Source of the DNA: Pandoraea pnomenusa
GTDB taxonomy: Bacteria > Pseudomonadota > Gammaproteobacteria > Burkholderiales > Burkholderiaceae
Assembly (NCBI RefSeq): GCF_000767615.3
Contig: NZ_CP009553.3
Location: forward strand, 2,232,001 to 2,296,000
Direction: 5' to 3'
Length of the DNA stretch: 64,000 bases
The notes beneath the pieces are model-generated. The model ran no database searches, was not told where the DNA came from, and was given only the letters and a program-made list of their open reading frames with translations. The translations under genes and the position numbers were made by a program. The number at the start of each line of letters is the position of its first letter. The stretch's first letter is position 1. Of the stretch, positions 30,489-53,220 are shown piece after piece.

Positions 30489-31853
30489 TCACTCGAGCGG
30501 TATGAAGTTACGGCTTGCCGATGCCATCGAAGGCAGACGTGCCAGACGTGCCAGACGTGCCAGACGTGCCAGACGTACGAATAGCGACCGAATCATCTGC
30601 GGCATCGAATGACGCTCGATCGATTCGGCGAGGCTGCTGGTGGCCGGGGAAGACGCCGGTTGCGTCCCGCGCGAACCCGACGGCGCCGCGGGCGGCAGTC
30701 CGATGCGTGTGCCGACCGGATGCGGCATCGACAGCCGTGCCAGCCATGCCACCGTCGTGCCGATCAGGGGAATGCGCTCGGCGATTTCCGTGGCGGTGCG
30801 CACCACGCTTTGAACCCGCGAGAGCACTTCTCCCTGCACGTGATAGGCGTCCACGCGCGAGGACGCCGGTGTCGCGTGATGCCGGGCCACCGTGCGCTCG
30901 TGCAGTCCGGCGGCGTCGAATGTCAGGCCGTGCGATCGCTCCACCACGGAGGTCTGCGCCGAAGCGAGGCCACCGCCCAACGAGTGCCCCGTGAACATCA
31001 GCCGCGACGCCGGGTACAACTGCGTCAACGTCTTCCCCCAGGCGATGGCCGCCTCGTATTGGCGTGAAGGTAACCCCAGCGCCTGCAAAACATTCTGCTT
31101 CCAGTCGACGTAAGCGCGTGCCGCGATGTTCATCTCCGTGCCGCGATTGGCGGCCAGGATGTTGCCGCTGACGGGGTCGGCGTAAACGGCACCAAAGAAC
31201 CCGGACCCCCCGGGGCCGTTGTCGTCATGCGCGTCGATGCGTTGCACGCGCGCGGGCAGGATCTGCGGGATCGACTGGTCGAAGTAGACGTCATGATCCA
31301 CAAGCGCAGCGGTCACGACGTTACGTTGTTCGAGCATCTTGCGAGGCATCGCGTCGATGCCGTGCGTCTCGATCCACGCATCAATCTCGTCGACGCGTTG
31401 CGCGACAGCCACGAGACGCGACGTCTGATATGCCGACGCTTTCGCCTCGCTTTCGTCCACGAGTGATGTCAATTGTTCGAGCACGCTGTCGAAAGCCGCC
31501 GCCTGTTGCGGGTCCGACGGGCGCACCGGGGACGAGCGCCGGCACAGCTCGCGCGTCGCATCGATCCATGCCTGCGTCAACGCCCTCGAGCGACGCTCGT
31601 GCGCGTAATGCGGATCGGCGTCATGTCCGATTCGGGGAGACGTCTGGACGCCGCGCAAGGTGCGTCGCCATCGCGCGCTGGCGATCCGTTGCTCACGCGT
31701 CAGGGCATGCCACTGATCTGATGTTTCGGATGCCGAAGAATGGTGCGCTTGCTCGGGGTTTGCATCGCCATGGGTGGTGGGGGCAGGCGTTTCGTCGAGG
31801 ACGACGTGGGGCGTTACGGCAGGGGCGTGCCGCAGACTTGTTGGGCCAATCAT
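30489..31853 (-). CDS. Lipase-3-like alpha/beta-hydrolase, possible secreted effector
   Basis: A 454-residue protein. Residues about 215-385 form a class-3 (fungal) lipase-like domain: the oxyanion-type NRGTE (237-241), the nucleophile elbow FTGHSLGGGLAS (Ser291), a candidate Asp335/His338 region (VDAYHVQGEVLSRV), and a late His378 in HPVGTRIGLP. The first 110 residues are hydrophilic, low-complexity and without a signal peptide, as in many type III or VI effectors. The C-terminus carries (RLA)n encoded by a 9-bp tandem repeat. No secretion genes are adjacent, and no good Shine-Dalgarno is seen before the ATG. Hydrolase assignment is fairly firm; effector status is inference. Confidence 0.72.
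   Translation of the reverse strand: MIGPTSLRHAPAVTPHVVLDETPAPTTHGDANPEQAHHSSASETSDQWHALTREQRIASARWRRTLRGVQTSPRIGHDADPHYAHERRSRALTQAWIDATRELCRRSSPVRPSDPQQAAAFDSVLEQLTSLVDESEAKASAYQTSRLVAVAQRVDEIDAWIETHGIDAMPRKMLEQRNVVTAALVDHDVYFDQSIPQILPARVQRIDAHDDNGPGGSGFFGAVYADPVSGNILAANRGTEMNIAARAYVDWKQNVLQALGLPSRQYEAAIAWGKTLTQLYPASRLMFTGHSLGGGLASAQTSVVERSHGLTFDAAGLHERTVARHHATPASSRVDAYHVQGEVLSRVQSVVRTATEIAERIPLIGTTVAWLARLSMPHPVGTRIGLPPAAPSGSRGTQPASSPATSSLAESIERHSMPQMIRSLFVRLARLARLARLARLPSMASASRNFIPLE
30532..30576 (-). repeat. 9-bp tandem repeat inside the lipase-like gene
   Basis: Four perfect copies of GCCAGACGT (30541-30576), preceded by one copy with a single mismatch (30532-30540). They encode the tripeptide Arg-Leu-Ala repeatedly near the C-terminus. 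Because the unit is a multiple of three, copy-number change would lengthen or shorten the helix without a frameshift. Confidence 0.9.
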
Positions 31854-32153: not shown

Positions 32154-33422
32154 TTACCTGGCCAGCCCGCCCAACAGTCCGGTGACCGGCGCCAGCACAC
32201 CGGCGGCACTGCCTGACCCGGTCGTGCCGCCCGAGCCCGCGCTGGCGAGCGACGTGAGCGGGGTCGTGACGGTGCTCAACAGCGTGGTGACGGTGCCGAG
32301 CGGATTCGTGGCGCTGCTGCCGCTTCCACCGACGCCCCCGGTGCCGCCGGTCACTGCCGTGGCGCCACCGAGCAGGCCGGTGAGGCTGCCCAGCGGATTG
32401 GCGCCCGACGTGCCGCCGCCTGCTGTCCCGCCGAGACCGCCGAGCAGACCGGTCAGGGCGCCCAGCGGATTGTTGCCACCGGCCGTTGCGGGCGACACCG
32501 TCGTATTGCCGACGTTGGCGAGCACATTGCCCAGCGCGTTCGGGCTCGTTGCGCCCGTGTTGCCGAACAGCAGACCGCCGGCGCTGGTCGCCGTGTTGCC
32601 CAGTGCCATGAGCGGATTGCCAAGGCTGGCGACCACGGCGTTCGGCGCGGCGCTCTTCACCTGGGTGCCCGCCAGATTCAGCGCGCCGCCCAGCGTGCCC
32701 AGCAGGCCTGCCACCGGCGTGCCCAGCCCGGTCGTGTTCCCCACGGTCTGCGTGGTGCTCACCACCGTATTCGTAATCGGCGAGATGGCGGACGAGAGCG
32801 CCGTGGTCGCCTGCACGACGGGTGCGCTCCCGAGCGCCTGCGTGAGCGCCGCGCCGCCGCTCACGCCACCCTGGCCGACGGTGGCGACCGCATTGCCCAG
32901 CACGCCCGTGAGCGAGTCGACAGGGGTGTTCGCGAGCGGGCCGCTCTTGCCGATGCCCGCGATGCCGCTGCCGAGCGATTTGCCCGCGTTGCCGAGATCG
33001 GTCACGACACTGCCGGTGCTCGCGAGCGTGGTGCCGACCGGGTCGGTGCCTGTCTTGCCCAACTGTCCGAGCCCGCTGCCCACGCCGGTGCCCAGATCGG
33101 TCACGGCGTTACCGGTTTGCGTGAGGGCCCCGCCAAAGCCCTGCGTGGCCTGCGGCGACACGCCCGGAATCGTCGTGCCGGACACCTGGTTTCCGACGGC
33201 GCTGACCACGGAGCCGACCGAGCTCACCACACCGTTGCTCGACGTTGTCGGGTTCGTCGGGTTGTTGGGGTCGTTCGGATTGGTCGGTGTGTGGGGATTG
33301 TTGGGGTTTGTCGGCGTGTTCGACGTCGCGCCACTGCCGCCGCCCGAACTGGAGCAGCCGGTGACGCCGAAGAGCGCTGCGACGAGCGCGGCGAGCAAGG
33401 TGGGGTGAAGCCATTTCGACAT
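32154..33422 (-). CDS. Glycine-rich repeat lipoprotein (paralogue 1), 'collagen-like' type
   Basis: A 422-residue predicted outer-membrane lipoprotein: signal peptide with lipobox VTGC (Cys23) followed by SSSGG. Residues about 30-62 form an Asn/Pro/Thr linker (NPNNP/PTNP repeats). Residues about 64-245 form a module shared with the two upstream paralogues. The C-terminal third consists of NPLGxLTGLLGG-type repeats, ending LAPVTGLLGGLAR. Similar proteins are often labelled collagen-like triple-helix repeat, but no regular Gly-X-Y run is visible. Last gene of the sigma-54 operon, 59 bases after the MarR gene. Function unknown; adhesion or matrix is inferred. Confidence 0.8.
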   Translation of the reverse strand: MSKWLHPTLLAALVAALFGVTGCSSSGGGSGATSNTPTNPNNPHTPTNPNDPNNPTNPTTSSNGVVSSVGSVVSAVGNQVSGTTIPGVSPQATQGFGGALTQTGNAVTDLGTGVGSGLGQLGKTGTDPVGTTLASTGSVVTDLGNAGKSLGSGIAGIGKSGPLANTPVDSLTGVLGNAVATVGQGGVSGGAALTQALGSAPVVQATTALSSAISPITNTVVSTTQTVGNTTGLGTPVAGLLGTLGGALNLAGTQVKSAAPNAVVASLGNPLMALGNTATSAGGLLFGNTGATSPNALGNVLANVGNTTVSPATAGGNNPLGALTGLLGGLGGTAGGGTSGANPLGSLTGLLGGATAVTGGTGGVGGSGSSATNPLGTVTTLLSTVTTPLTSLASAGSGGTTGSGSAAGVLAPVTGLLGGLAR

Positions 33423-33481: not shown

Positions 33482-34213
33482 TCAGGCCTTGGACGTGGGG
33501 CCCCTGGCACTGGACACCAGGCCAGCGATGTCCTGGTCGGCCTCGAAGCGCAGACGGAAGGTTTCGCTCTTCAGGGTGCGAATGCTCTGCACCAGGAAGT
33601 CGTGGATCGCGGCGAGTTCGCTGTGGTCGTAGGCGGCACTCACGGCGGTGAGCTCGCGCGAGACGGACGACAGGAACTGCTCGATCTGAGCGCAGCGTTC
33701 GGCGATCGGATGGATCATCACCATGCGGCGGTCGTGCGGATTCTTTTCGCGCTCGACGAAGCCGGCGCGCTCGAGCCGGTCGATGACGGTGGTGATGCCG
33801 CCAGAACTCACGCCCATGAGCTCGGCCAACTGACCGGCGGTGATCGATTCGAGTTCGAGAATCAGGTCGAGCGCGTTCAGATCGGTGACGTTCAGACCGA
33901 GCTGTTCGGCCAGCGCTGCGTGATAGAGCGCGGTGTACACGGCGAGCCGGCGTCCGAGCGAGCGGACGATGCCGGCGACGAGATCGTTTCGGTTCGTATG
34001 TCGGTCGCTCATGGTGCCGTGCGTTGCGTTGAGCGGGGAGGCAGTGGCCGTCGCCCCGGAAGCAGCGCCCGAATCGGCGCCGTACGTGTTGTGGCTCTGG
34101 CGGGCGCCGACACCGCCGGCGGTCTCGCGCATGGCCGGGGGTTCGGCATATTGCGAGGCGGATTCGCCAAGACCGCGCATCAGCACGCCGGTGTCGGATA
34201 GGAAGCGGGCCAT
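33482..34213 (-). CDS. MarR family transcriptional regulator with long N-terminal extension
   Basis: 243 residues. The C-terminal 150 form a MarR winged-helix domain: LNVTDLNALDLILELESITAGQLAELMGVSSGGITTVIDRLERAGFVEREKNPHDRRMVMIHP shows the HTH and wing in order. The first 70 residues are low-complexity (Ala/Ser/Gly/Thr) and not part of the family core. AAGGAG five bases before the ATG at 34213 supports translating this extension, although an internal ATG (about 34012) would give a standard MarR. It is embedded between two lipoprotein genes in the same operon, so it probably regulates this operon or the neighbouring pilus genes. Confidence 0.87.
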   Translation of the reverse strand: MARFLSDTGVLMRGLGESASQYAEPPAMRETAGGVGARQSHNTYGADSGAASGATATASPLNATHGTMSDRHTNRNDLVAGIVRSLGRRLAVYTALYHAALAEQLGLNVTDLNALDLILELESITAGQLAELMGVSSGGITTVIDRLERAGFVEREKNPHDRRMVMIHPIAERCAQIEQFLSSVSRELTAVSAAYDHSELAAIHDFLVQSIRTLKSETFRLRFEADQDIAGLVSSARGPTSKA

Positions 34214-34298: not shown

Positions 34299-35477
34299 TT
34301 ACTTGCCGACGCTGGCGACGCTGCCGAGCGGGGTGGTCACCGGTGCGAGCAGACTGCCGAGGCCGGCGGTGGCGCCACCCGAGCTGCCGCCGGCCGCGCT
34401 CGTCACGCCGGAGAGCAGGCCCGTCACGGGCGCGAGCGGGCTGGCGCTGCCGCCCGACCCCGACGCGGCACCGCCCAGGCCGCCCAGCAGACCCGTGACC
34501 GGCGCAAGCGGGCTGCCCCCGCCGCTGGTGCCGCCAAGTCCACCCAGCAGACCCGTCACCGAGCCGAGCGGATTCGCGTTGCCGCCCGCCGCGGTCGATC
34601 CGAGGTTGCCGAGCAGCGAGCCGAACGGGTTGGCCGTGCCGGTCGAGGTGGATCCGTTCAGGAACGAGCCGACGCCGCCGACTGTGTTGCCGGTGGCGAT
34701 GACGGTGTTGCCGAGCGCCGTCACCACACCGTTCGACGAGGTGCCCTTCATCGTCGTGCCGACCGTGCCGACCGTGTTGCCGACCGTCGTGAGCAGGTTC
34801 TGCACCGGGCCGCCCAGACCGGTCGTGGTACCTACCGTGCGGGTGGTGTCGGACACGACGTTGGTGACCGGGTTGATCGCCTTCGAGAGCGTGGAAGTGA
34901 CCTGCGTGACCGGTCCACCCGTGAAGGCCTGCTTCAGAATTGCGCCGCCCGCGATGCCGCCCTGGCCGACCGTGGATACCACATTGCCCACGGCGGACGT
35001 CAGTCCGTCGACCGGCGTGCCGGCGAGCGGGCCGCTCTTGCCGATGCCGGCCACACCACTACCCAGTTGAACGCCCGCCTGGCCCAGATCGGTCACGACG
35101 TTGCCGGTGCTGGCAAGCGTGGTGCCGACGGAATCGCCTGACGTGCCGGTTTGGCCGAGACCCGCGCTCACGCCGTTGCCGAGATCGGTGACGGCGTTGC
35201 CGGTGCTCTTGAGTGCGCCGCCGAATCCCTGTGACGCTTGCGGCGAGACGAGCGGCAACTGCGTGCTGGCGACCTGATCGCCGAGCGCGCTCACGACGTT
35301 GCCGGCGGAGCTCACGACGCCGCCCGCGTTCGTTGCGGTGGTGCCCACGGCGTTCGGCGTGCCCGTGGTGCCGGCCGAGGTGGCACCGCTTCCGCCACCG
35401 CCGCTCGAGCAGCCGGTCAGTGCGATGGCGGCGATGGCGGCCGAGGCGAGAAGCGTGCGTTGGAGTGCGAGGTTCAT
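34299..35477 (-). CDS. Glycine-rich repeat lipoprotein (paralogue 2), 'collagen-like' type
   Basis: 392 residues with lipobox LTGC (Cys23) followed by SSGGGGSG. A short linker leads into the shared module (about residues 50-235), which is closest to paralogue 1: identical blocks include QGFGGAL, TGNAVTDLG, VGTTLAST and GIGKSGPLA. The C-terminal part carries about four PLAPVTGLLGGLGG-type units. The start at 35477 has AGGAG ten bases upstream; the open frame runs further, to 35528, without a ribosome site. Third gene of the operon. Surface location likely, role unknown. Confidence 0.8.
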   Translation of the reverse strand: MNLALQRTLLASAAIAAIALTGCSSGGGGSGATSAGTTGTPNAVGTTATNAGGVVSSAGNVVSALGDQVASTQLPLVSPQASQGFGGALKSTGNAVTDLGNGVSAGLGQTGTSGDSVGTTLASTGNVVTDLGQAGVQLGSGVAGIGKSGPLAGTPVDGLTSAVGNVVSTVGQGGIAGGAILKQAFTGGPVTQVTSTLSKAINPVTNVVSDTTRTVGTTTGLGGPVQNLLTTVGNTVGTVGTTMKGTSSNGVVTALGNTVIATGNTVGGVGSFLNGSTSTGTANPFGSLLGNLGSTAAGGNANPLGSVTGLLGGLGGTSGGGSPLAPVTGLLGGLGGAASGSGGSASPLAPVTGLLSGVTSAAGGSSGGATAGLGSLLAPVTTPLGSVASVGK

Positions 35478-35534
35478 GGTGTCTATCTCCTGTGTCGTTC
35501 TGAAAGTTTCGATTCGGTTTCGGCGCATCGCCGC

Positions 35535-37097
35535 TTACTTCTTCGCGCCGAGCAGGCCGCCCAGCAGACCCGTCACCGGGGCGAGCGGGCCGGTGCTTCC
35601 GGTGCCGCCGGCGCTGGTTGCGCCGCCGACCGCGCCCGTGACCGCGCCGAGCAGGTTGGTCACCGGCGCAAGGGCGCCGCCCGCGGTCGCGCCGCCAGTG
35701 CCACCGGTCGCGCCGCCGGCCACGGCGCCGAGCCCGCCGGTCAGACCCGAGACGAGATTCGTCACCGGGGCGAGGGCGTTGCTGCCCGGCGTGCCGCCGG
35801 CGGCGCCGCCGAGCGCCCCCGTCACGCTGGCGACGAGGGTGGTGACCGGTGCGAGCGGGCTGCCGCCCGAGGCGCCGCCCGTGGCGCCACCGAGCCCGCC
35901 TGTCAGACCGGCGACGAGATTCGTGACCGGGGCGAGGGCGTTGCTGCCCGGCGTGCCGCCAGCGGCACCGCCGAGCGCACCCGTCAGGCCCGAGACCACG
36001 CTCGTGACCGGGGCGAGCGGGTTGGCGCCGCCAGTGGCGCCACCCAGGCCACCCAGGCCGCCTGTCAATCCCCCCAATGCCGACGTAAGCGGCGCGAGCG
36101 GATTGGCGCTGGTCGGCGTGCCGTGCACGGCGCCGCCGAGACTTGCCACGGTGTTGCCCACGCCTGCGACGATGCCGCCAACGTCCGCGGCGACCGGGTT
36201 GTTGAGTTGCCCGCCGATCTTCGTGCCCACGCCGGCCAGACCGCCGCCCACGGTGGCCAGCAAGCCGGCAACCGGCGTACCCAGGCCCGTCGCATTGCCG
36301 ACCGTTTGCGTGGTGTTCGTCACCACGTTCGTGATCGGAGTGATCGCGGAGGAGAGCGACGTCGTCAGTTGCTGCACCGGCGCGCTCGTAACGGTCTGCG
36401 TGAGCCCGGTACCGAGCGACTGGCCGGCCATGCCGACCGAGGTCACGACACCGCCGAGCAGCGTGGTGACGCCGTTGATCGGCGTGCTGCCGAGCGGGCC
36501 TGTCTGACCGAGACCGGCGACGGCGCTGCCCAACTGCGTGCCCGCCGTGCCGAGATTCGTCACCGCCCCGCCCACGCTGGCGAGCGTCGGGTTGAGCGGG
36601 TCGCTGACCGAACCGAGCTTGCCGATGCCGTTGGTCAGGCCCGTGCCAAGTGTCTGCACGGCGGTGCCGGTGGACACGACGGCGCCCGACAGACCCGATT
36701 GCGTTTGTGTGCTCAGCAGCGGGAGTTGCGTGCCGGCGAGCGTCGTGCCCACGTCGCTGACGGTCTTGCCGACTTGGGTGACAACCCCCGTGCTTGCCGT
36801 ACCGGCGACCGTGCCGATCGGGTTGGTGGTCGCGCTCGTGCCGGTGCCGCCATCGCCGTTGCCGTTGCCACCCGTGTTGCCATTGCCGCCGGTGCCCGAG
36901 CCGCCGGTTCCCGAACCGTCGCTGACCGTTCCGGCGCCCGTGCCGCCGCCACCGCCAGCGCCGGCCGTGGTGCCGCTGCCACCGCCGTCGCCGAGCGAGC
37001 CGCTGGTGCCCCCGGAGCCTGAGCTGGCGCAGCCGGTCATCGTGATGACGGCAAGCAGGCAGGCGGAAGCGAGCAGGTTGCGTTGAAGGTTGTTCAT
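35535..37097 (-). CDS. Glycine-rich repeat lipoprotein (paralogue 3), 'collagen-like' type
   Basis: The longest paralogue, 520 residues, with lipobox MTGC (Cys23) followed by ASSGSGG. A Gly/Thr/Asn-rich linker of about 60 residues (GTGGNGNTGGNGNGDGGTG) precedes the shared module (about residues 98-285), which is more divergent than in paralogues 1 and 2. From about residue 305 to the end there are at least seven units of the form (P/A)LAPVTxLVxGLTGxLGGaxGG, spaced about 30 residues apart and mirrored as long DNA repeats at 35570-36100. AGAGGACACCATC precedes the ATG. Second gene of the operon. Confidence 0.8.
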   Translation of the reverse strand: MNNLQRNLLASACLLAVITMTGCASSGSGGTSGSLGDGGGSGTTAGAGGGGGTGAGTVSDGSGTGGSGTGGNGNTGGNGNGDGGTGTSATTNPIGTVAGTASTGVVTQVGKTVSDVGTTLAGTQLPLLSTQTQSGLSGAVVSTGTAVQTLGTGLTNGIGKLGSVSDPLNPTLASVGGAVTNLGTAGTQLGSAVAGLGQTGPLGSTPINGVTTLLGGVVTSVGMAGQSLGTGLTQTVTSAPVQQLTTSLSSAITPITNVVTNTTQTVGNATGLGTPVAGLLATVGGGLAGVGTKIGGQLNNPVAADVGGIVAGVGNTVASLGGAVHGTPTSANPLAPLTSALGGLTGGLGGLGGATGGANPLAPVTSVVSGLTGALGGAAGGTPGSNALAPVTNLVAGLTGGLGGATGGASGGSPLAPVTTLVASVTGALGGAAGGTPGSNALAPVTNLVSGLTGGLGAVAGGATGGTGGATAGGALAPVTNLLGAVTGAVGGATSAGGTGSTGPLAPVTGLLGGLLGAKK

Positions 37098-37124: not shown

Positions 37125-37412
37125 TCAGGCGAGCACGGCTTGTGCCGCCAGACGGTTGTTCATGCGTTGTGCGATGAGCGCGAACAGCAGCGCGTCGACA
37201 GCGGCGCTGCCGAAGCCCGTCATTGCATGGGCCGAATGCGTGGCGTGGCCGTTGGCCGGATCGAACGGTGTGGCGGTGGCGCGCACGCCACCGCCGTCTT
37301 CACCGCCCCTCCCTGGGCTTGCGCCTCTACGATCGTTGCCGCCGATGCGCTGACGCTGCGCGGTGATGGCTTCGGTGCGCTGCGTCGGTTGCTTGGTATT
37401 GCCAATGATCAT
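37125..37412 (-). CDS. Small protein, first gene of the sigma-54 lipoprotein operon, 95 aa
   Basis: No recognised family. The N-terminal two thirds are hydrophilic and Arg/Gly/Thr-rich (IIGNTKQPTQRTEA, then GRGGEDGGGVRATAT). The C-terminal 30 residues are an amphipathic or weakly hydrophobic helix (GSAAVDALLFALIAQRMNNRLAAQAVLA). There is no signal peptide. GGGGGG six bases before the ATG, the ORF position 28 bases before the next gene, and a sigma-54 promoter about 45 bases upstream argue that it is real. Confidence 0.6.
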   Translation of the reverse strand: MIIGNTKQPTQRTEAITAQRQRIGGNDRRGASPGRGGEDGGGVRATATPFDPANGHATHSAHAMTGFGSAAVDALLFALIAQRMNNRLAAQAVLA

Positions 37413-37454: not shown

Positions 37455-37471
37455 GCGCAAGAGGTGTGCCA
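37455..37471 (-). promoter_or_regulatory. Sigma-54 (RpoN) promoter of the lipoprotein operon
   Basis: Read leftward from 37471: TGGCACA-CCTC-TTGC, with the obligatory GG and GC dinucleotides ten bases apart. This differs from the consensus TGGCACG-N4-TTGC at one position. The predicted transcript start is near 37445, about 33 bases before the 95-aa gene. AATCAATGATTTC (37471-37483), immediately upstream, resembles an IHF site with one mismatch. Confidence 0.8.
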
Positions 37472-37498: not shown

Positions 37499-37509
37499 CT
37501 CTAGTTTTT
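37499..37509. repeat. 11-bp motif CTCTAGTTTTT, copy 1
   Basis: Identical to 38297-38307, with partly shared flanks (AAGACT before, CG after). This copy is about 28 bases upstream of the sigma-54 promoter; the other is about 240 bases upstream of the first pilin gene. Confidence 0.5.
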
Positions 37510-37652
37510 CCGTCAAACGGCTGAAAAGCCTGTATTTATTTGCGTTTTGGAAAACAAGAATCTTTTGGATCGAGAGATCGGTGTTCGCAGGGAACGGGTA
37601 AAAGTCAGGGTTAACGCGATCGGAATATGGCGAGTGTCGGGCGCAAATCCGT

Positions 37653-37693
37653 TCCCGTTACGTCGGGCGTTACGGGTAACGTTACGTAACGCC
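37653..37693. promoter_or_regulatory. GTTAC inverted-repeat cluster, candidate upstream activator site
   Basis: GGCGTTAC (37666-37673) and GTAACGCC (37686-37693) form an 8-bp inverted repeat with a 12-base spacer that itself contains the palindrome GTAACGTTAC (37676-37685). Another GTTACG lies just left. It sits about 200 bases upstream of the sigma-54 promoter, a usual distance for enhancer-binding-protein sites. Confidence 0.5.
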
Positions 37694-38296: not shown

Positions 38297-38307
38297 CTCT
38301 AGTTTTT
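38297..38307. repeat. 11-bp motif CTCTAGTTTTT, copy 2
   Basis: Identical to 37499-37509 and in the same orientation, about 240 bases before the first Flp pilin gene. Confidence 0.5.
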
Positions 38308-38547: not shown

Positions 38548-38733
38548 ATGAAACTCGGCAAACGTATTCGACTGTTCGCTCGCGACGAGCGAGGTGTCAC
38601 GGCGCTGGAATACGGCATTCTCGCCGCGATTGTCGCCGTGATCATCGGTGGCACGATCTACGCCAACCTCACGGGCACGTTCTCGACGGTCTTCTCGAAA
38701 GTGACCTCTGCCGTGACGGCTGTCGGTGCCTGA
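38548..38733 (+). CDS. flp: Flp family type IVb pilin (first copy)
   Basis: Prepilin of 61 residues, the major subunit of the Flp/Tad pilus. A positively charged leader (MKLGKRIRLFARDERG) is followed by the processing site G-VTALEYG and the hydrophobic assembly helix ILAAIVAVIIGGTIYANL. Cleavage by the prepilin peptidase encoded downstream is expected after RG. GAGGGAG lies upstream of the ATG at 38548. First gene of the rightward tad locus. Confidence 0.93.
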   Translation: MKLGKRIRLFARDERGVTALEYGILAAIVAVIIGGTIYANLTGTFSTVFSKVTSAVTAVGA

Positions 38734-51804: not shown

Positions 51805-53220
51805 ATGAAAAGCAAGCCAGTACGTGAAGACCTCGACGTGTACGTGTGGGAAGGCAAGTCGGACATTGCCGACCGGGTGGCGCATTGCCTCGCGAGCTTC
51901 GACATGGAAGTCATTCGCGCCGACGGCATCGACCTGTCGCGCGAGCGCACCAGGGCGCGTCCGTCGATCGCCGTGGTCAGCGTGTCGGTCATTGAGGGGG
52001 CGTCGACCAACGCACAGGAGTGGCAGCTCGGTCACGGCATGCCCGTGATCTGGGTGGCCACGTCGCCGCGCGAGAACGATCCGCGCGTATATCCGCCCGA
52101 GTACAGCAATATCCTCACGCTCGACTTCACGGGCGCGGAGCTGCGCACGCTCATCTTCAAGCTCTCGGGCGCCATTGCCGACGCCGACCGCGCGCCCACG
52201 CCGGCCGATCCGCTCGTCGCGCGATCGAGCGCCATGCTCGGACTGCTCGCCGAGGTCGATGCGTTCGCCGATTGCGATTCCAACGTCCTTATTCACGGCG
52301 AAACCGGGGTAGGCAAGGAGCGCATTGCGCGCCTGCTGCACGACAAGCACAGTCACTACGGGCAGGGGCCGTTCGTGGCGGTGAACTGCGGCGCGATCCC
52401 GGACGGGCTCTTCGAGTCGCACTTCTTCGGCCACGCCAAGGGCGCGTTCACCGGAGCGCTCTATTCGCACAAGGGCTATTTCGAGCAGGCCAACGACGGC
52501 ACGCTCTTTCTCGACGAAATCGGCGATCTGCCGCTGTATCAACAGGTCAAACTGCTGCGCGTGCTCGAAGACAGCGCGGTCACGCGCCTGGGCTCCGCAC
52601 AGCCGGTCAAGCTCGATTTCCGGCTGGTGGCGGCGACCAACAAGAATCTCAAGTCGATGGTGCGCGACGAGCTGTTTCGCGCCGATCTGTTTTATCGGCT
52701 CGCGGTCATCGAACTGCATATCCCGAGCCTCGAAGAGCGCGGCGCCATCGACAAGCTGGCGGTCTTCACGGCGTACCTGGACAAGGTCGTCGGCAAGCTC
52801 GCCGGCGATGGCGATGGCGACGTCGCGGCGCAGGTGCCCGGGTGGCTTCGCGAACTGGTCGAAGGCGGTGTATTTCCCGGCAATGTGCGCGAAATGCGCA
52901 ATATCGCCGAGCGCGTCGGCATCATCTACCGGCAACTCGGCGGCTGGGACGAGCGTCGCATCCGGCCGATCTTCGACGCGCTGGCGATCAGCCCGGCCAC
53001 GCGCGGCGACGATACCGCGCGCGCCGGTGCTTCGGCCGATCGCGCTCGCTGGGACGCCACCGAACGGGCCCGTATCGTGGCGGCGCTCGATGCCAACGGC
53101 TGGCGCCGTCAGGACACCGCCAACGCGCTGGGCATTAGCCGCAAGGTGCTGTGGGAAAAAATGCGCAAATATCAGATCCTCGGCAACGACTCGGAGTTGG
53201 CCAGCGAGTACGAGGGGTAA
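51805..53220 (+). CDS. Sigma-54-dependent activator with degenerate receiver domain
   Basis: Bacterial enhancer-binding protein of 471 residues. Residues about 10-125 resemble a receiver fold but lack the acidic pair and the phospho-acceptor Asp (the third strand reads SIAVVSVSV), so phosphorylation control is unlikely. The AAA+ domain has Walker A GETGVGKE (165-172), an intact GAFTGA loop (213-218) for sigma-54 contact, and Walker [11 protein letters not shown]. The C-terminal Fis-type HTH is [35 protein letters not shown]. It follows tadG by about 120 bases and is the obvious candidate to act at the sigma-54 promoter at 37455-37471. Confidence 0.92.

Follow-up and report, generated by a model that had tools for sequence, protein, structure and literature searches.

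A conserved sigma-54 promoter with an upstream CGTWACG array at a Collagen_mid lipoprotein operon, and its probable activation by the GtrR ortholog of the adjoining tad locus

The window analysed here, a 64-kb stretch (64,000 nucleotides) of the Pandoraea pnomenusa genome, carries a lipoprotein operon that is transcribed divergently from a tad pilus locus. The features on which this study draws are as follows.

32154..33422, minus strand: Collagen_mid lipoprotein 3, 422 aa, lipobox VTGC (PF15984, E 7.3e-43)
33482..34213, minus strand: MarR-family regulator, between lipoproteins 2 and 3 (PF01047, E 1.4e-15)
34299..35489, minus strand: Collagen_mid lipoprotein 2, 396 aa, lipobox LTGC (PF15984, E 1.4e-45)
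35535..37097, minus strand: Collagen_mid lipoprotein 1, 520 aa, lipobox MTGC (PF15984, E 1.1e-51)
37125..37412, minus strand: first gene of the operon, 95 aa, with a match in 29 of 32 genus genomes
37457..37471, minus strand: predicted sigma-54 promoter, -24/-12 element TGGCACACCTCTTGC, the sole exact match in the window
37500..37580, no strand assigned: second conserved block of the leader, including the TCTAGTTTTT box (genus alignments)
37656..37691, no strand assigned: candidate upstream activating sequence, four CGTWACG copies starting at 37656, 37668, 37680 and 37685
38298..38307, plus strand: TCTAGTTTTT box upstream of flp, the same box as at 37500-37509
38548..38733, plus strand: Flp pilin gene, which opens the divergent tad locus (PF04964, E 1.8e-11)
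51805..53220, plus strand: sigma-54 activator (bEBP), ortholog of GtrR/BCAL1536, at the end of the tad locus (PF00158, HTH_8)

A sequence-only reading of the window had described a leftward run of a 95-aa gene, three lipoprotein genes and a MarR gene, and the order of the open reading frames together with the Pfam assignments bears this out. All genes from the 95-aa gene to lipoprotein 3 lie on one strand with intergenic gaps of 27-85 bp, and all three lipoproteins combine a PF15984 match above the cut-off with a lipobox, the latter taken from the translations. Searches of the 95-aa protein against Pfam and NCBIfam gave no match, and scans for sigma-70 promoters and terminators returned nothing above shuffled controls. 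The operon is followed on the same strand by a lipase-3-like gene (30489-31853; PF01764, barely above cut-off).

The collagen triple helix family (PF01391, G-X-Y repeats) has no match in the three lipoproteins of the window. An AlphaFold2 model of the 396-aa lipoprotein 2 (mean pLDDT 67) places helices over residues 47-278 (block means 65-92) between low-confidence ends; a fold search with the Collagen_mid model found nothing in the PDB at E 0.001 or below, and a sequence search of the PDB for Collagen_mid relatives found none at 0.01. From this model, collagen appears less likely than a flexible chain, anchored by its lipid, that carries a helical mid domain. As PF01391 is unmatched and the mid region is predicted to be helical, 'collagen-like' is a poor label for these proteins, and the model suggests that the mid domain of proteins so named is a helical fold and not collagen.

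The sigma-54 consensus takes the form TGGCAY-N5-TTGC, and a sequence of this kind with GG-N10-GC spacing is found at 37457-37471. The element TGGCACACCTCTTGC reads from 37471 to 37457 on the minus strand, its last base lying 44 bp before the ATG at 37412; the near-consensus site with exact GG/GC spacing that had been called at this place is thus present as described. Arithmetic from the -24/-12 element puts the predicted transcript start at about 37445, the position given by the earlier reading. Taken alone, the match says little. TGGCAC-N5-TTGC without mismatch occurs once in the 64 kb, at this site, and across the 5.39-Mb genome it occurs 21 times against 9 for the reversed pattern, a rate of ~0.1-0.25 per 64-kb window that makes a single exact match weak evidence. 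With two mismatches allowed, the window holds 83 matches where 80.5 are expected, so that loose matches to the consensus are uninformative.

Conservation of the GG and GC elements in orthologous leaders had been set beforehand as a test of the promoter. Among the 32 genomes of the genus set the 95-aa protein is matched at 30 places, and at 28 of these the leader carries TGGCAY-N5-TTGC, with its GG and GC, some 60 bp ahead of the start codon, which lifts the site above chance. The two places lacking the element are a weak (35%) match in G014 (L032) and a second, weak match in G013 (L033). Three divergent leaders (L029, L030 and L031) retain TGGCAT...TTGC while the bases of the spacer differ, and flp is divergent from the 95-aa gene in all 28 genus loci (L004-L031). 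In a genus-wide alignment of the intergenic region, 37500-37580 and the GTTACG repeats stand out as additional conserved blocks. Seven genus loci (L006, L007, L009, L011, L016, L020, L028) have another sigma-54-like site some 760 bp farther upstream, which was set aside, since its motif is not kept in the other genus loci aligned, and we regard it as clade-specific or due to chance.

The GTTACG repeats belong to an array that is found well beyond the genus. Motif discovery with spaced 4-mers, given no prior motif, was applied to the 300 bp upstream of 35 promoters, 34 from 25 tad-linked loci of ten genera plus that of the window. The dyad ACGT/TACG, which is the core of CGTTACG/CGTAACG, ranked first, in 34 of 35 leaders and 11 of 12 groups, whereas the top words of three shuffles reached at most 5 groups. 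Counted directly at 80-350 bp upstream, CGTWACG has at least one copy in 35/35 leaders and at least two in 31, against 0.03 per leader expected from base composition; divergent pairs share DNA, so the 35 leaders are not independent. Every one of the 28 genus leaders also has at least one copy. In the window the array sits 185-220 bp upstream of the -24 element, a distance greater than in most other genera, which we count against the explanation favoured below.

The loci behind these leaders come from 32 stretches (L136-L167), mostly 20 kb long, taken around orthologs and paralogs of the tad-locus activator. Twenty-five of them, from ten genera, hold a Collagen_mid gene adjoining tad (L136-L158, L161, L165); the other seven comprise a tad locus without Collagen_mid (L159), three non-tad activator paralogs (L160, L162, L163), two short pieces (L164, L166) and L167, which derives from G014 and holds only a Collagen_mid fragment. 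A sigma-54-like site lies upstream of Collagen_mid in all 25 tad-linked loci, with a score of at least 14.3 on a weight matrix built from consensus frequencies. Against this must be set the further scattered sigma-54-like sites that appear in 18 of the 25 loci at a scan threshold of 12. Two divergent sites were kept as leaders in genera g3 and g24 and in L154; seven of the nine plus-strand sites there lead into a detected Collagen_mid gene, and those of L139 and L154 do not.

Collagen_mid genes also occur away from tad. At 18 such places (L168-L185), on another contig or more than 0.4 Mb distant, site and array are found together at 13 (14 promoters), all in g11 (Burkholderia) and g20 (Paraburkholderia); at three of the 13 (L180, L183, L184) the lipobox rule gave no ORF at the expected position. 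None of the five g24 paralogs (L168-L172) has site and array together at the gene, which counts against the explanation favoured below; they are a second, shorter Collagen_mid type that lacks the sigma-54/enhancer module. Outside these 18 places, L186 (G137) holds two divergent Collagen_mid genes and two sites with arrays on a contig without the activator, and no sigma-54 site is found in L187, which adjoins the G046 locus and holds no known Collagen_mid gene. In a set of named genomes, the best 79 of 190 relatives found, every one of the 79 loci pairs a sigma-54 site with one or more CGTWACG copies lying 80-350 bp upstream of it, whereas the same test at 772 control places of these loci was positive at 7, one of which is the own promoter of L241 and two of which, high-scoring (L289), may be further such genes. 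Tad genes are seen in 61 of the 79 loci and not in 18, two of which (L271, L285) lie near contig ends, so that their tad linkage cannot be judged. This set partly overlaps the 200 genomes used below, and the two results are therefore not independent.

That a conserved element other than a promoter resembles the -24/-12 consensus by chance has a point in its favour, in that a single exact match in a window is nothing unusual, but persistence through nearly all genus places, all named-genome loci and unlinked paralogs, with the elements retained while spacers vary, leaves this explanation with a negligible share of the probability. A second alternative accepts the sigma-54 site as activated from elsewhere and takes the CGTWACG array as the operator of a repressor or other regulator, such as the MarR protein of the operon; the palindromic form of the array and the presence of a MarR gene inside the operon speak for it. 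However, among L136-L167 a tblastn search finds the MarR gene only in the genus loci L156-L158, whereas the array is present in all ten genera tested, and a position ~100-350 bp upstream fits an enhancer rather than a promoter operator. We judge an operator role improbable and, with arrays in every leader and every named-genome locus, consider CGTWACG a conserved candidate upstream activating sequence.

The likeliest partner of such a sequence is encoded at the far end of the tad locus. The locus itself is identified by Flp_Fap and Tad domains in the window and by an equal gene order in other loci (tblastn); a second Flp-like pilin reading frame runs from 38881 onward, after the first, and second pilins are seen in many genus loci too. 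The gene at 51805-53220 follows a TadG-like gene, and its product has a PF00158 AAA+ domain, a GAFTGA loop at residue 213 and a C-terminal Fis-type HTH, the features of a bEBP. It is the sole bEBP among the ten window proteins scanned, and the genome-wide PF00158 scan adds none, in agreement with the earlier statement that the window has no other sigma-54 activator. That scan gave ten strong matches and three weak ones; with so many strong bEBPs genome-wide, the fact that the window holds just this one does not prove the pairing. An ortholog of the activator is present in 31 of the 32 genus genomes.

Its closest PDB sequence, 7vbs/7vbw, is a sigma-54-dependent regulator of 465 residues whose alignment spans residues 1-464 (E 1.3e-181); this sequence starts like the published gtrR primer, from which we infer that 7vbs/7vbw is GtrR. 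The gtrR primers of PMC8174753 match the 463-aa tad activator of L142 with 2 mismatches at the start codon and 1 at the stop, and GtrR is given as 463 aa (PMC8174753). The full-length PDB match, the length and primer match of L142 and the position of BCAL1536 within the Flp operon identify the window activator, on sequence and locus, as a GtrR ortholog. The recognition-helix stretch of the tad activators of Collagen_mid loci is 88-100% identical to that of the window protein, while the N-terminal 130 residues are 43-85% identical. Ten tad activators read GSFTGA in place of the GAFTGA of the window ortholog (Burkholderia 3/3, Paraburkholderia 3/3, g10 2/2, g16 1/2, Trinickia 1/3; loci L141-L143, L147-L149, L152, L161, L164 and L165), a difference between this genus and Burkholderia that we count against the favoured explanation.

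Activator and Collagen_mid co-occur closely, and in two genomes they decay together. Among 200 genomes, 106 have both PF15984 and a GtrR ortholog, 89 have neither, 3 have only PF15984 (G182, G190, G192) and 2 only the ortholog (G014, G037). The exceptions are informative. In G014 the activator is broken and Collagen_mid is seen as a fragment only; G190 combines a broken activator with a single Collagen_mid gene that lacks a sigma-54 site, yet it retains two CGTWACG copies close to that gene, a point against the explanation favoured below; G182 has a partial Collagen_mid without site or array; and in G037 (L159), with tad and no Collagen_mid, the tad-linked ortholog reads GALAGA in place of GAFTGA. 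G192 speaks against the pairing, as it has array and promoter with a best activator match of 38% (E 6.9e-53), below ortholog level, though its assembly is in 440 contigs, which makes the absence of the activator uncertain.

These observations suggest that TGGCACACCTCTTGC is a genuine sigma-54 promoter and that a GtrR-type bEBP, acting via the CGTTACG/CGTAACG array, drives the Collagen_mid operon as a core part of its regulon; we put the probability of this reading at about 0.86. The presence of the module before most of the Collagen_mid genes tested, at tad or elsewhere, argues that the family forms the core GtrR regulon, and GtrR is best read as an RpoN-dependent activator with the adhesin-like Collagen_mid lipoproteins as its core targets. 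We propose that the GtrR-type bEBP from the last gene of the tad locus binds the upstream array and, by DNA looping, contacts the RNA polymerase-sigma-54 that waits at the -24/-12 element, thereby driving transcription of the operon for the Collagen_mid surface lipoproteins, which would act with the Tad pilus in adhesion or aggregation. The signal would be RpfR together with cyclic-di-GMP, a step taken from the Burkholderia literature.

The main competitor keeps promoter and array and assigns their activation to another bEBP of the genome, the tad bEBP serving other promoters. Nine strong bEBPs besides the tad one are available, G192 keeps the module without an ortholog-level activator, and paralogs of the Trinickia group have a similar recognition helix, so that cross-talk is possible. 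In a Trinickia polysaccharide locus (L160, g25), a 51% paralog of the activator, its helix 83% identical, accompanies the same array and a sigma-54 site before a gene with ManC-type domains, which speaks for the favoured explanation; two more paralog loci, L162 (helix 83%) and L163 (88%), gave no convincing pairing of array and promoter in the stretch examined, which speaks against it. The close co-occurrence and co-decay of this particular ortholog with Collagen_mid, its location at the tad locus, and the fact that the sole other array seen near a bEBP gene adjoins a paralog of this same activator make another bEBP unlikely, and the earlier hunch that the tad-encoded activator drives the lipoprotein operon is very probably right.

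The same hunch had extended to the pilus, taking pilus and lipoproteins as co-regulated parts of one surface-attachment program. The lipoprotein half of this stands, with a sigma-54 promoter and the tad activator as its likely driver; the pilus half, on the same switch, is not supported. No GG-N10-GC with a weight-matrix score of at least 11 was found before flp in the window, and since flp has no visible sigma-54 promoter the pilus is not established as a GtrR/sigma-54 target here. Seven loci of the genera g3 and g24 have an additional sigma-54 site that points toward flp across a Collagen_mid gene, which makes co-control of the pilus plausible in those genera. The TCTAGTTTTT box lies at 37500-37509 and again upstream of flp; 24 of 28 genus loci carry it on both sides with no more than one mismatch, and the shuffled control gave 56/2800 on the flp side. 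Judged from its placement, the box at both divergent promoters may couple the two operons in this genus, perhaps by binding a regulator common to both, for instance the operon's own MarR protein.

The sequence-only reading could match this arrangement to no described system, and this holds only in part. The Flp cluster, the lipoproteins BCAL1523/1524 and GtrR are each known separately; what was not found in the openly licensed literature is a report that joins them through sigma-54. The Flp cluster of B. cenocepacia is described as two putative operons, BCAL1524-1520 and BCAL1525-1537 (PMC2753556), and BCAL1523/1524 are Collagen_mid lipoproteins adjoining flp (PMC10224339). Contact with host-derived membranes induces both of them along with flp genes (PMC7970998). 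BCAL1524 occurs in outer-membrane vesicles and promotes autoaggregation, which is reduced when the protein is lost (PMC10303873). These proteins and BCAM0695 are of the same PF15984 family as the lipoproteins of the window (PMC10224339, PMC10303873, PMC7970998). The main text of PMC10224339 contains none of the words 'sigma', 'promoter' or 'enhancer' and leaves the regulation of the Bcc lipoproteins unexplained.

GtrR is BCAL1536, the partner of RpfR (PMC12838280), and a BCAL1536 mutant is reported to be attenuated (PMC5295037). The RpfR-GtrR system of B. cenocepacia resembles the present one in its activator, a full-length ortholog encoded within the Flp operon BCAL1525-1537 just as the window activator ends its tad locus. 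It differs in its reported direct targets, cepI and bclACB (PMC12838280, PMC8174753), and the passages of these papers that describe them name no sigma-54 promoter, CGTWACG enhancer or Collagen_mid target; that the published targets are other promoters counts against reading Collagen_mid as the core target. Going by its published description, BerB of B. cenocepacia is a bEBP of similar layout (GAFTGA at 208-213, against 213 in the window) that depends on RpoN and c-di-GMP and controls a biofilm trait (PMC5552954), and RpfR also interacts with BerB (PMC9684580). BerB differs in its locus and in its target, berA and the Bep polysaccharide (PMC5552954). FleQ of Pseudomonas is an AAA+ activator related by sequence that aligns only from about residue 97-125 on, and it differs in controlling flagella and Pel (PMC5552954).

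In the openly licensed literature we found no report of the promoter, the enhancer or a link between GtrR, sigma-54 and Collagen_mid. The conserved GtrR-sigma-54 regulon of Collagen_mid lipoproteins predicted here appears to be new, its pieces having been published separately. It would give the virulence-linked GtrR a predicted mechanism (a sigma-54 activator), a DNA site (the CGTWACG array) and primary targets (the Collagen_mid lipoproteins), it suggests a reason for the joint induction of these lipoproteins and the Flp pilus on contact, and it bears on how related bacteria decide to attach to surfaces. A wider proposal, which we hold tentatively and at somewhat less than even odds, is that GtrR, known for its quorum-sensing partnership with RpfR, is fundamentally the dedicated RpoN-dependent master activator of a family-wide surface-attachment regulon, that its paralogs read the same enhancer for exopolysaccharide, and that the effects on cepI and virulence are secondary or later. 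The regulon so conceived would span Collagen_mid genes at tad and elsewhere and, in certain genera, also lipoproteins with a collagen triple helix and small receiver-like proteins.

A composite array-promoter pattern gave 195 matches in 86 of the 200 genomes, against 30 matches in 27 genomes for the reversed control; both totals include overlapping placements, the spacing of the pattern excludes the window's own leader, and at such a control rate single matches prove nothing. Nineteen of the stretches found, not adjoining Collagen_mid (L218-L236), were inspected in part. In g3 the module precedes small receiver-like proteins (L218-L220, L232, L234, L236), two of which (L219, L234) were searched and had no Pfam match, and also lipoprotein-like ORFs with G-X-X runs (L221, L222, L224), of which the L222 protein matches both PF01391 and PF15984. 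In the divergent genus members G023 and G030 (L225, L226) it stands before similar proteins; that of L225, the one tested, has a PilZ domain, a hint at a link to c-di-GMP. Within the 5.39-Mb genome, GTTACG-N0-30-GTAACG occurs at only two places, the window array and 933441-933481. The latter (L237, G000:C1:933353-933481) lies directly upstream of an exact TGGCAY-N5-TTGC before an ORF, and a composite pattern with its spacing is found in 25 of the 32 genus genomes, in rows mostly alike in sequence, against 1 match for the reversed control.
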